Source: a bacterium
GTDB lineage: Bacteria; CLD3; SB21
Direction: 5' to 3'
Assembly: GCA_008933615.1 (NCBI GenBank)
Contig: WBUR01000031.1
Coordinates: forward strand, 1 to 52,739
Length of the DNA: 52,739 bases
Under the pieces are notes generated by a model. The model was not told the origin of the DNA. It ran no database searches and saw only the letters and a list, made by a program, of their open reading frames with translations. Position 1 is the stretch's first letter. Each line of letters starts with the position of its first letter. The position numbers were made by a program, and so were the translations under genes. Shown here piece after piece: positions 50,063-52,739 of the stretch.

Positions 50063-50091
50063 TTGACAAATACCCCGCCTCAGAGTACATT
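50063..50091 (+). promoter_or_regulatory. strong candidate promoter before the accessory gene array
   Basis: A perfect TTGACA (50063-50068), a 17-nt spacer and TACATT (50086-50091). The first supported ORF begins 170 nt later. Its place ahead of the cassette-like genes, reading toward them, is that of an integron cassette promoter. Confidence 0.55.
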
Positions 50092-50267
50092 CCTCCGTCT
50101 ATCAACGTTCTTTCTATCGTAGGATTTCTCGTCATGATCAATTTTAATAAGAAAATATTGAATAAACGCGATTGTATATTGTCACAAATGATTGCGTGTG
50201 CACGCAGTTTCGGTTATAGAGAAAGATCTGTGCCATCAGCGCGTCATGAAAATGAACGGTGTAAAAT

Positions 50268-50696
50268 ATGGGTAACGGCAAGGAACCTCCTGATCGGCAG
50301 GAATATCTCACAGAACGAAAATTATTAATAGAATTAGAATCAACTGCGGCCTCGACTTTTGATAAGGCCATGTTGACGCTTTCTGCGGGCGCGATAGGAT
50401 TGTCTATCACATTTACAGAAAAAATTGCATCTAACCCTATCTGTAAGGAATTTTTATACACGTCTTGGTGCTTCTTACTTGTATCATTGTTGGCAATACT
50501 TTCATCATTCATAACCAGCCAACATGCACTGAGAGAGCAACGGGATAATTTAGATGGCAGGTATAATGAAATGGATTTTAAAGAAAAAACGACGTTTGCA
50601 ATGGTAACAAATATACTCAACTGGCTTTCCATCTCTACGTTTACTATCGGCATCATATTTCTGATTATTTTTGCTATAAAGAATTATAAGAATTAA
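50268..50696 (+). CDS. small three-helix membrane protein, accessory
   Basis: The 142-aa product has a charged N-terminus (about 1-28), then three membrane segments (about 36-53 with LTLSAGAIGLSITF, 63-86 with SWCFLLVSLLAILSSFI, and 117-138). A basic/acidic loop separates the second and third. It resembles, in shape, small membrane proteins common in genomic islands and cassettes, but no family name can be supported. It is followed after 9 nt by a 57-aa ORF with a good ribosome-binding site, so both likely form one unit. It ends upstream of the first attC-like repeat. Confidence 0.6.
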   Translation: MGNGKEPPDRQEYLTERKLLIELESTAASTFDKAMLTLSAGAIGLSITFTEKIASNPICKEFLYTSWCFLLVSLLAILSSFITSQHALREQRDNLDGRYNEMDFKEKTTFAMVTNILNWLSISTFTIGIIFLIIFAIKNYKN

Positions 50697-50705
50697 GGAG
50701 GCATC

Positions 50706-50879
50706 ATGGCATCTGAGGAGAAAAAAGAAAATAATAAACTAAATGTTATGTCTGACGACCCAAACCTGAAAATGGGATTGGTTCCACCTAAGCAGCCTGC
50801 AAATAACATAGTGGAGAAGCCAGTTGAAAATAAACCAGTGGAAAACCAGCCAACACAGGAAAAACAGTCGGAAGAATAG
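50706..50879 (+). CDS. 57-aa hydrophilic, likely disordered protein
   Basis: A 57-codon ORF with AAGGAGG 4-5 nt before its ATG. The product is almost free of hydrophobic residues, rich in Glu, Lys, Asn and Pro, and has a repeated VEKPVENKPVENQP. It should be unstructured. It lies 9 nt after the membrane protein gene, suggesting a co-translated partner, and its stop is 15 nt before the first attC-like site. No homologue is recognised. The strong ribosome-binding site and tight spacing support a real gene. Confidence 0.55.
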   Translation: MASEEKKENNKLNVMSDDPNLKMGLVPPKQPANNIVEKPVENKPVENQPTQEKQSEE

Positions 50880-50894
50880 AAGATATACTCTGAG

Positions 50895-51059
50895 GTATAA
50901 CAAGCGGCTTCCTTGTACGCTGTGCGACACTTTTTGATTTTACGAAAGAGATTGTGGGGCGTCGCTCGCCAGTAGCTCGCTCACGGTTTGAGTATGTTCT
51001 TAATTAATTGTATTTTTCCCCGCGTGCGAGCTACTGCGTGTAGCCGCCGGGCGCTATGT
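50895..51059 (+). mobile_element. attC-like site, copy 1
   Basis: Starts GTATAAC (50895-50901) with AAGCGGC and ends GCCGCCGGGCGCTATGT, giving the outer paired boxes of an integron attC. The core contains perfect 11-bp arms CAGTAGCTCGC and GCGAGCTACTG. The stretch from 50932 to about 51050 is nearly identical to copy 2. At 165 bp it is somewhat longer than usual attC sites. No integrase gene is in the window. Confidence 0.55.
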
Positions 51060-51089
51060 GCCATGTCGCCTAACCAAGAAGACCTTTAT

Positions 51090-51722
51090 ATGAATATCGA
51101 TAATCTTATAATCACTTTAAATCAAGACGCTGATCAAATTGCTTCATATTGCAAAACTTTAACCTCTCCTGAAATAAAAGTTATAACATTAGACATTTTT
51201 GTAATCGGTTCTGGTCAACGAACGATATATTTAATTGATGGTTTTCTTGATTCAATATTGAAAGGTAACTTTGTTTGTACTGCTCCCATTATTAGAATGA
51301 ACCTCGATACTCTTCTCAGAATAATATTCATCATGAAGCATGGGACGGAAGAAATACTTTCACAATTTGTTGAAGGTAAGGCTTTTCGAAATATTAAAGA
51401 TCAAGACGGTCGCAAATTGACCGATCAGAGACTACGAGAGTACGCGCGACCCCATTACAAGTGGATAGATCCAGTTTACGAACAAACTTCTGATTTTGTT
51501 CATTTGTCGAGCCGCCACTTCTATTCACACGTTACAATTGTAAATAGCGACATTAGCAATATACACTTTCGATATGGAAGACCAGCAATTGAGTGGATGA
51601 AAAAAGAAGATGTGTTTGAACATTGTGCGGCGATGCAAACAATTTCTAGTAACGTAAAAATAATGATTGAGAAGTATATTAAACATCGCCCGAACATTCA
51701 CTTAGGGCGACCCATCGCATAA
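51090..51722 (+). CDS. hypothetical protein between two attC-like repeats
   Basis: The 210-aa product has a mixed alpha/beta composition without a signal peptide or clear membrane helix. It has a conserved-looking ASYCKTL and RTIYLIDGFLDSILK region and a His-rich HLSSRHFYSHV around residue 150. I recognise no family. ATG codons at 51063 and 51090 are possible starts, since the frame is open into the repeat; 51090 is taken because the earlier one lies 3 nt after the attC-like end. Its TAA at 51720-51722 is inside the first box of copy 2, exactly as in integron cassettes. Confidence 0.65.
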   Translation: MNIDNLIITLNQDADQIASYCKTLTSPEIKVITLDIFVIGSGQRTIYLIDGFLDSILKGNFVCTAPIIRMNLDTLLRIIFIMKHGTEEILSQFVEGKAFRNIKDQDGRKLTDQRLREYARPHYKWIDPVYEQTSDFVHLSSRHFYSHVTIVNSDISNIHFRYGRPAIEWMKKEDVFEHCAAMQTISSNVKIMIEKYIKHRPNIHLGRPIA

Positions 51723-51902
51723 CATCTTTAAAAAGTACTTTGTCTTGCGGCTTACACGTGCCGCTTCGCGACGCCTTTTGATTTTACGAAAGAGATTGTG
51801 GGGCGTCGCTCGCCAGTAGCTCGCTCACGATTTGAGTATGTTCTTAATAAATGTTATTTTTCTCGCGTGCGAGCTACTGCGTGTAGCCGCCCAGCGTTAT
51901 AC
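51717..51902 (+). mobile_element. attC-like site, copy 2
   Basis: Begins GCATAAC (51717-51723), overlapping the stop codon of the upstream gene, and ends GTTATAC (51896-51902). GCGGCTTACACG near 51748 pairs with CGTGTAGCCGC near 51880 with a single unpaired T, as in the extrahelical bases of attC. The core (51776-51890) repeats copy 1. Length 186 bp. Confidence 0.6.
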
Positions 51903-51971
51903 GCAATTGCAGCCCCGGTTAGATGTTTATTGAAATTAGCGAGTGTCTAATTATTCTTTCCAAAAGCATGC
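51723..51971. other. inter-cassette region
   Basis: Holds attC-like copy 2 and, after it, CGCAATTGCAGCCCCGG (51903-51919), which has an imperfect inverted partner at 52535-52552 on the other side of the PAS gene. No gene of its own is supported. Confidence 0.5.
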
Positions 51972-52529
51972 GTGGTGAGCGTGAGCGATAATTACAACAT
52001 CCTGTATCATATTGATGATCAAGATCAAATCGTACTTGTGAGCGAGACATGGGATGCTTTCGCGTTAGCAAATGAAGGACACAATATTCTATCATCGCAT
52101 GTATTCCGCCGCTCAATATGGGATTTCATTAGTGATCCTGCAACTGAGCAAATATACCGGCAGGTGTTGAAAACCATACGTAGTGGTCGGTCATTGCGAT
52201 TTAACTTTCGATGTGATTCGCCCGCTCGTCGAAGGCTGTTGGAAATGAATATTGTTTCGGGACAACGGTCAACGGTTATTTTTAACACACGCACCTTGTC
52301 TGAAGAGATGCGGCATCCGCCCGCGATCCTCGGCCCTCGTAAACCTAGTTCCGATAAGTTTGTGCGTATGTGTGGCTGGTGCAAGAAAATCGATATGGGG
52401 AATCAGTGGGTCGAAGTTGAAGTTGCCATGGAACAACTGCGTTTGTTTGAGGAAGAGAAGGTTCCTTCAATAACTCATGGTATTTGTGGCGAATGCTACG
52501 GCAAGATGAAATTACTAATTGAATCTTGA
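51972..52529 (+). CDS. stand-alone PAS domain protein with C-terminal Cys cluster
   Basis: The 185-aa product has a PAS-like fold (about 1-115: ILYHIDDQDQIVLVSETWDAF, IWDFISDPATEQIY, LRFNFRCDSPARRRLLEM). A C-terminal CGWCKKI ... THGICGECYGKM pair of cysteine motifs follows (about 137-178), a module I associate with PAS-containing sensor proteins. No kinase or output domain is present, so it may be a small sensor or a partner protein. The start is GTG (51972; also 51975 and 51981). It follows copy 2 of the attC-like repeat, but no attC-like site follows it. Confidence 0.65.
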   Translation: MVSVSDNYNILYHIDDQDQIVLVSETWDAFALANEGHNILSSHVFRRSIWDFISDPATEQIYRQVLKTIRSGRSLRFNFRCDSPARRRLLEMNIVSGQRSTVIFNTRTLSEEMRHPPAILGPRKPSSDKFVRMCGWCKKIDMGNQWVEVEVAMEQLRLFEEEKVPSITHGICGECYGKMKLLIES

Positions 52530-52639
52530 GCCAAAGCCGGACTGCAATTGCGGTTGTCATTAAATGTGACGAAAAAGGATTTTTATTACTTACCAATGGA
52601 ATTGATTAAAGAATGTGCTTATCGGGTTTACTCACATAC

Positions 52640-52690
52640 GTCATGGTGAGCCCTTCGGCAGGGCTCAGGACAGGCTTGTCGAACCATGAC
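52640..52690. repeat. palindromic repeat with nested hairpins
   Basis: GTCATGGT (52640-52647) and ACCATGAC (52683-52690) bracket two inner stems, GAGCCCT/AGGGCTC and GACA/TGTC. The composition (cctTCGaca-type) is familiar from dispersed palindromes of many bacterial genomes; copy number here is unknown. The remaining bases to the window end hold no supported gene. Confidence 0.65.
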
Positions 52691-52739
52691 CAAGTTTAGT
52701 AAAATCAGTCTTCGACTTCGCTGGTATGTAAAGAGTCAA

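Follow-up and report, generated by a model that had tools for sequence, protein, structure and literature searches.

The window, i.e. the whole stretch of DNA analysed, is one complete contig (WBUR01000031.1, further called C31; 52,739 bp) of a bacterial genome of 3.77 Mb (G000), and carries near its right end a cluster of putative gene cassettes separated by repeats that resemble the attC sites of integrons. Two direct repeats of 101 nt (50918-51018 and 51762-51862) were 92% identical and ran into a further pair of 60 nt (51005-51064 and 51848-51907; 82% identity), confirming the two near-identical repeats in the same orientation that an earlier, sequence-only reading of the locus had described. 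The following features were retrieved, in which R'' and R' are the outer boxes of a site and ORF stands for open reading frame:

50063..50091, + strand: promoter-like leader TTGACA-N17-TACATT, conserved, reading into the cassettes and present at other platforms too
50167..50219, + strand: putative attI-like remnant (..GATTGCGTGTGCACGCAGTTTCGG..), aligning with AATTGCGTATA..TACACGCAATT on the C18 platform when the window, C18, and C62 were compared
50268..50696, + strand: ORF of 142 aa, resembling a small membrane protein, belonging to the first cassette or cassettes, whose limits are poorly defined
50706..50879, + strand: ORF of 57 aa, without a Pfam match
50895..51059, + strand: attC-like site 1, with R'' GTATAAC (50895-50901), hairpin arms, and R' GCTATGT (51053-51059)
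51053..51723, + strand: cassette 1, decayed, its ends pairing at only 12 of 20 positions
51090..51722, + strand: ORF of cassette 1, 210 aa, with weak similarity to DUF5677 (3.6e-5, below the cut-off) and its stop codon inside the next R''
51717..51902, + strand: attC-like site 2, with R'' GCATAAC (51717-51723) and R' GTTATAC (51896-51902)
51724..51744, + strand: insert of 21 nt (ATCTTTAAAAAGTACTTTGTC) in site 2, between the first box and the hairpin, probably the end of an insertion element
51896..52558, + strand: cassette 2, without an attC of its own, its ends forming an imperfect inverted repeat (51902-51920 / 52534-52552)
51972..52529, + strand: ORF of cassette 2, 185 aa, without a confident family

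The four outer boxes were present where the sequence-only reading had placed them, and the stop codon that it had seen overlapping the next repeat was the TAA of the ORF at 51090-51722, which sits within GCATAAC of site 2. The promoter that it had described was found as well; this leader recurred before attI-like sites and cassettes at C18:34005 and, in two related genomes, at G001:C118 and G002:C121; G002:C263 carried a related leader. The first box of copy 2 had been said to match the reverse complement of the last box of copy 1 with one change, but two differences were counted (GTTATGC / GCTATGT). Over 20 nt, only 12 positions paired between the start of copy 2 and the end of copy 1, versus about 15 out of 16 in intact cassettes, indicating that cassette 1 is decayed relative to the latter. 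Moreover, the register proposed for site 2 was displaced by the 21-nt insert, and the single cassette taken for the whole array turned out to be accompanied by further cassette remnants on both sides. The cluster is partly decayed, as the GTTAT of the site 1 R' box was mutated at its second base (GCTAT), site 2 carried the insert, and the attC of cassette 2 was lost. Both sites did fold on the bottom strand (z = -3.7 for site 2 and -2.3 for site 1), as the earlier reading had required. An Rfam scan of the window returned only RNase P and a tRNA, and no attC match. In G002, the syntenic place was occupied by ordinary, unrelated chromosomal genes without cassettes.

The 21-mer of site 2 was also found, in identical form, directly after CATAAC of two other attC sites of this genome (C62:98-118 and C68:99-119), both copies being located at contig ends; it is possibly the end of an attC-targeting insertion element, of which the window copy would be the footprint. 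A match of 12 out of 13 positions between the extension of the first R'' of the window and 50080-50095 was dropped as a look-alike of a cassette end, since it falls in the promoter spacer. With a promoter, an attI-like remnant, and cassettes, the cluster in the window looks like a satellite platform without a recombinase. Other platforms away from the recombinase, consisting of a promoter, an attI-like site, and a cassette or its leader, occurred at C18:34005-35340 and on C62 of the same genome, as well as at G002:C121:44520 and G002:C263:4077. An empty-site comparison for the C18 cassette was unsuccessful, the right flank being conserved in G001 and G002 and the left flank being different.

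The attC-like site was present in about 40 copies in the own genome (40 matches, E 3e-82 to 3e-7), mostly in dense arrays of one orientation on the short contigs C68, C72, C73, C76, C77, C80, C81, and C84, which fits an assembly that breaks at repeats; isolated copies were found on C18, C33, and C62. The same repeat family was found in two genomes of the same genus. Dispersed repeats of another kind do occur in the genus, such as an element of about 110 bp (..GTCATGGTGAGCCCTTCGGCAGGGCTCAGGACAGG..) at 52613-52722, which has more than 25 copies in G001 and is probably the reason why the window contig ends there. This could favour an explanation of the attC-like repeats as a dispersed palindromic element, comparable with repetitive extragenic palindromes or miniature inverted-repeat transposable elements, between which ORFs would lie incidentally. 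Most of the repeats lay in clusters and pointed the same way, each interval holding a single sense ORF. In addition, the ends of adjacent repeats were specifically complementary and those of non-adjacent repeats were not, which already contradicts this explanation, and junctions lay exactly at G|TT, making a dispersed element extremely improbable.

The end complementarity was quantified for 94 intervals from three genomes of the genus. For each, the 20 nt after the G|TT of one site were set against the 20 nt that precede AAC in the following site, the latter being reverse-complemented. Within a cassette, the match amounted to 0.94-1.00 at positions 1-10 and to 0.85-0.95 at positions 12-16, but was 0.00 at position 11; for non-adjacent ends, the variable positions were at background (0.25-0.55). 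The pairing of cassette ends extends over 15-16 bp and is obligatorily discordant at position 11, where the R' side nearly always carries A and the R'' side C, giving an A-C mismatch on the top strand and a G-T pair on the bottom strand. When cassettes were circularised in silico, the bottom strand was predicted to be the more stable one in 80 out of 80 cases (mean -58.1 versus -53.2 kcal/mol). Sites measured 85-200 bp with long internal hairpins, the inner stems of which showed compensatory changes in four out of 29 pairs. As in IntI-type integrons, one ORF was combined with an attC showing R'-R'' complementarity between successive sites, and the predicted bottom-strand fold retained its structure with variable sequence. 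The boxes themselves read NNATAAC / GTTATNN in the genus and GTTAnnnGnAAT in other lineages, deviating from the RYYYAAC / GTTRRRY of the IntI type. The 88 cassettes delimited had a median body of 524 bp, with 69 ORFs in sense and three in antisense orientation, and with 16 cassettes lacking an ORF of 50 aa. Their products included, in a sample, ThsB-TIR, putative AbiC, and Schlafen-AlbA proteins, a type of cargo that has been reported for integron cassettes. Tiny recurrent cassettes with bodies of about 179-188 bp, starting with ATGGCCAGAATATACGAGG, were found on C68, C72, C76, C80, C84, and G2C39; as they have no ORF above about 40 aa, they would be non-coding or decayed.

Concerning the enzyme, the sequence-only reading had noted that no integrase was visible. 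This is right for the window contig but, as the window is one whole contig, says little, and it does not hold for the genome. No gene scored above the cut-off of the integron integrase model TIGR02249 in the own genome, nor did any IntI in the same-family genomes G001-G006. The best match in the own genome was a tyrosine recombinase of 296 aa on contig C71 (221 bits versus a cut-off of 265), within the range of 221-244 bits found for recombinases of this kind. The distance between boxes I and II was 91-96 aa in 75 homologues versus 131-133 aa in 23 IntI proteins, and residues 180-252 of IntI4 aligned with about 30 residues of the recombinase, leaving a gap, which indicates that the IntI-specific insertion (the additional domain with its I2 helix) is absent; these proteins are further referred to as domain-less. 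The catalytic residues R130, K155, H219, R222, and H245 were invariant and Y254 nearly so, and an AlphaFold model (pLDDT 79) had IntI4 (2a3v) as best and XerA as second match. The 3' flank of the C71 gene and of its orthologues in G001 and G002 was conserved up to ...GTATAGACRGTCG|TTAT, after which three different first cassettes followed. This pattern identifies the flank as an attI. An array of at least four sites directly follows the gene in G002, and a single site does so in G001. A second domain-less recombinase, of the Bacteroidota subclade, was encoded at C33:8119-8937, with a different array downstream of it (at 13.8-18.6 kb of C33), so that the own genome holds two such systems.

An insertion at G|TT in an attI beside the integrase gene, as known for IntI, was found in the three genomes and in two Chryseobacterium plasmids, but the recombinase gene was not divergent from the array, being co-directional with it and having attI downstream of its stop codon. 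Reversed IntI genes are known in Spirochaetota (PMC9668308), and the gene direction is therefore not decisive. The earlier designation as a cluster of attC sites lacking integrases (CALIN) was thus partly supported. The window has two attC-like sites and no integrase on its contig, in line with the IntegronFinder definition of at least two attC sites without an integrase nearby, and the array is integron-like; it differs in that a cognate, non-IntI recombinase with attI and a first cassette lies elsewhere in the genome, on another contig, and in that a promoter and an attI-like leader precede the cassettes. An ordinary CALIN, whose cassettes would stem from a canonical IntI (additional domain included) that was later lost or was missed in assembly, would agree with the lack of an integrase in the window cluster itself, with the common occurrence of CALINs, and with the splitting of integrons in draft assemblies (PMC9024848). 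It is very improbable in view of the absence of an IntI above the cut-off from the own genome and from G001-G006, the domain-less gene directly adjoining attI and arrays in the genus, and the different stem architecture. Indeed, in the canonical control (the Gemmatirosa superintegron, L221), ends paired over 10-11 bp and then fell to background, and position 11 was not obligatorily discordant. This control was used since a strict canonical attC consensus (RYYYAAC/GTTRRRY plus hairpin) retrieved no arrays beside the IntI genes of the class of G033, which served for protein comparison only.

A further explanation attributes the cassettes to host XerC/XerD recombination of dif-flanked (pdif) modules, the neighbouring recombinase being incidental. 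The recombinase does resemble XerA as well as IntI, and the folded site consists of two arms around a short spacer, like dif. Yet, dif-like flanking sites of 28 bp were absent, the sites being hairpins of 85-200 bp, and in many phyla the recombinase gene and attI are separated by a short, fixed interval. Also, separate XerC/D-like genes, with a spacing of 98-99 aa, were present in the genomes and fell outside the domain-less clade, making pdif modules a very improbable explanation. In a careful tree, domain-less proteins (support 94/96) and IntI (100/99) were sister clades, with the XerC/D-like proteins outside; the outgroup consisted of three long branches, so that the domain-less clade may be either sister or basal to IntI. 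A nesting of IntI inside the domain-less clade, seen in a quick tree, was not upheld and no ancestry is claimed. The domain-less proteins probably fall either into the 'integron-like' subgroup of tyrosine recombinases of Smyshlyaev et al. 2021 (PMC8138268) or near XerA (NF040815); that paper, in the sections concerned, calls the insertion essential for integron function and mentions no arrays or attI beside insertion-less members.

The domain-less system was not confined to the genus. Homologous recombinases were sought in wider genome contigs and 80 loci were kept, in which a detector requiring GTT...AAC end pairing and ignoring position 11 was applied. Downstream of the recombinase, 76 pairs were found, 68 of them with A/G at position 11, in 32 loci, compared with 36 pairs and a single A/G in twice as much upstream DNA and 0.7 in Markov-resampled downstream sequence. 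Where positions 4-15 of a pair contained exactly one mismatch, it was A/G at position 11 in 25 out of 28 cases. In 20 out of 31 loci, 63-121 bp separated the stop codon from the start of the first cassette. Of the 80 loci, 40 had a contig break within 2 kb on the downstream side of the gene, and eight on the upstream side. The loci belonged to Bacteroidota, Nitrospirota, Nitrospinota, Bacillota, Altarchaeota, and others. Pairs with the reversed discordance (G/A) were seen downstream at L112 and upstream at L108, in arrays oriented opposite to the recombinase. Group II intron maturase genes (ltrA) were present in domain-less arrays (L239, 15534-16850; L249, 1647-2963) on Chryseobacterium and Adhaeribacter plasmids, and are possibly attC-targeting, by analogy with canonical integrons.

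Finished plasmids provided junctions and a cargo of resistance genes. Two Chryseobacterium plasmids shared an attI and diverged exactly at ACAAG|TT. The tet(X2) unit on plasmids of Empedobacter, Myroides, Bacteroides, and Sphingobacterium ended in GTTATGTGCCATTTT / GTTATGTGCCGTTTT, pairing perfectly with A/G at position 11, apart from one additional mismatch in the B. fragilis copy. Its left (CTTG|, CCCG|, ATTG|, and ACCG|) and right neighbours (|TTAAGC, |TTATGCGG, |TTATGTGT, |TTATATGC, and |TTGTACGC) switched exactly at G|TT. By these ends, tet(X2) is a cassette of the kind used by the domain-less system, which appears to have carried the tetracycline resistance gene tet(X). The tet(X3) unit, with mismatches at positions 5-7 and a truncated attC, is a hybrid or decayed cassette. 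On Acinetobacter plasmids, this unit started 172 bp beyond TpnF (XerD), a 5'-truncated member of the same recombinase family (52.7% to the Flavobacterium protein). The genes catB (L244, 2418-3259; L248, 1269-2110) and ere(D) (L246, 659-2112) were found in antisense within cassettes with the position-11 signature, and the order of the catB and tet(X) cassettes was swapped between plasmids L244 and L248. A tetX-catB11-IS91-XerD cluster of Chryseobacterium has been described, in the part of PMC11194056 concerned, as resistance genes near mobile elements; the tet(X) gene family is the same one, and the present analysis assigns to tet(X) the boundaries of a cassette, with an attC and junctions at G|TT.

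The cluster in the window is best explained, with a probability of roughly 0.85, as a partly decayed, integrase-less satellite cassette cluster of an integron-like system, the array of which lies elsewhere in the genome. This system comprises, firstly, a domain-less tyrosine recombinase of 270-300 aa (Phage_int_SAM_4 plus Phage_integrase); secondly, an attI just downstream of its gene, most often at 60-125 bp and in the same direction; and thirdly, one-gene cassettes, each with a terminal attC. A circular cassette may expose the bottom strand of its attC, which would fold into a hairpin with an outer stem of 15-16 bp (R''/R' plus extension) and a conserved G-T pair at position 11. The top strand could not form this pair, having A-C there, and the choice of strand would come from the extended asymmetric stem instead of from docking of an I2 helix. 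The recombinase would cut at G|TT and join the cassette to attI, so that the newest cassette adjoins attI, and cassettes may also land at secondary platforms with a promoter and attI, such as that in the window, by action in trans. In a wider sense, it is considered likely that integrons have a second lineage, widespread and either sister or basal to IntI, whose recombinase, having lost I2 or never possessed it, captures single-stranded hairpin cassettes. This lineage would use an extended outer stem in which a conserved G-T pair marks the strand, would extend over many bacterial phyla and some archaea, and would be the origin of the mobile tetracycline inactivation gene tet(X).

Several points weigh against this interpretation. 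The ends of the window cluster are degraded and its attI-like remnant has no intact G|TTAT junction, so that the latter may be decayed or an uncertain assignment. In the own genome, C71 ends after the start of the first cassette and is linked to the arrays through the attI sequence and the sister genomes; there is also a small probability that a canonical IntI was missed in this metagenome-assembled genome of 99% completeness. For the canonical control, 19 cassettes were scored from what is essentially a single superintegron, the covariation energy term was small (-0.91), and recombination itself, including catalysis and the use of a single strand, is inferred. The domain-less system shares with IntI integrons, such as that of Gemmatirosa, a tyrosine recombinase, attI, the G|TT crossover, one-gene cassettes with hairpin attC, and within-cassette end complementarity, and differs from them in lacking I2, in a recombinase that reads toward the array, and in its longer, position-11-discordant outer stem. 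A search of the open-access PMC literature found no description of cassette arrays operated by integrases that lack the additional domain; with this scope, priority is uncertain.

According to the accepted account, the acquisition of I2, present in no other protein, gave integron integrases the capture of hairpin cassettes, intermediates being lacking (eLife 2020, PMC7790495). Whichever the tree placement, cassette arrays with G|TT junctions are common to enzymes that have I2 and enzymes that lack it, a point of relevance to the idea that cassette capture was enabled by the acquisition of I2. With a clade of I2-less recombinases that are associated with cassettes, this claim becomes directly testable, and natural enzymes for comparison are available. 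In Bacteroidota, complete integrons were almost never found by surveys requiring the additional domain (PMC9024848), and standard tools with the same requirement would score the present arrays as CALINs; the domain-less system may explain this scarcity as well as the origin of some CALINs. Further, it shows concretely how tet(X), a gene located near 'XerD/TpnF' recombinases, may move, and more such cassettes can be sought with a simple sequence signature, namely GTTAnnnGnAAT with the discordance at position 11.
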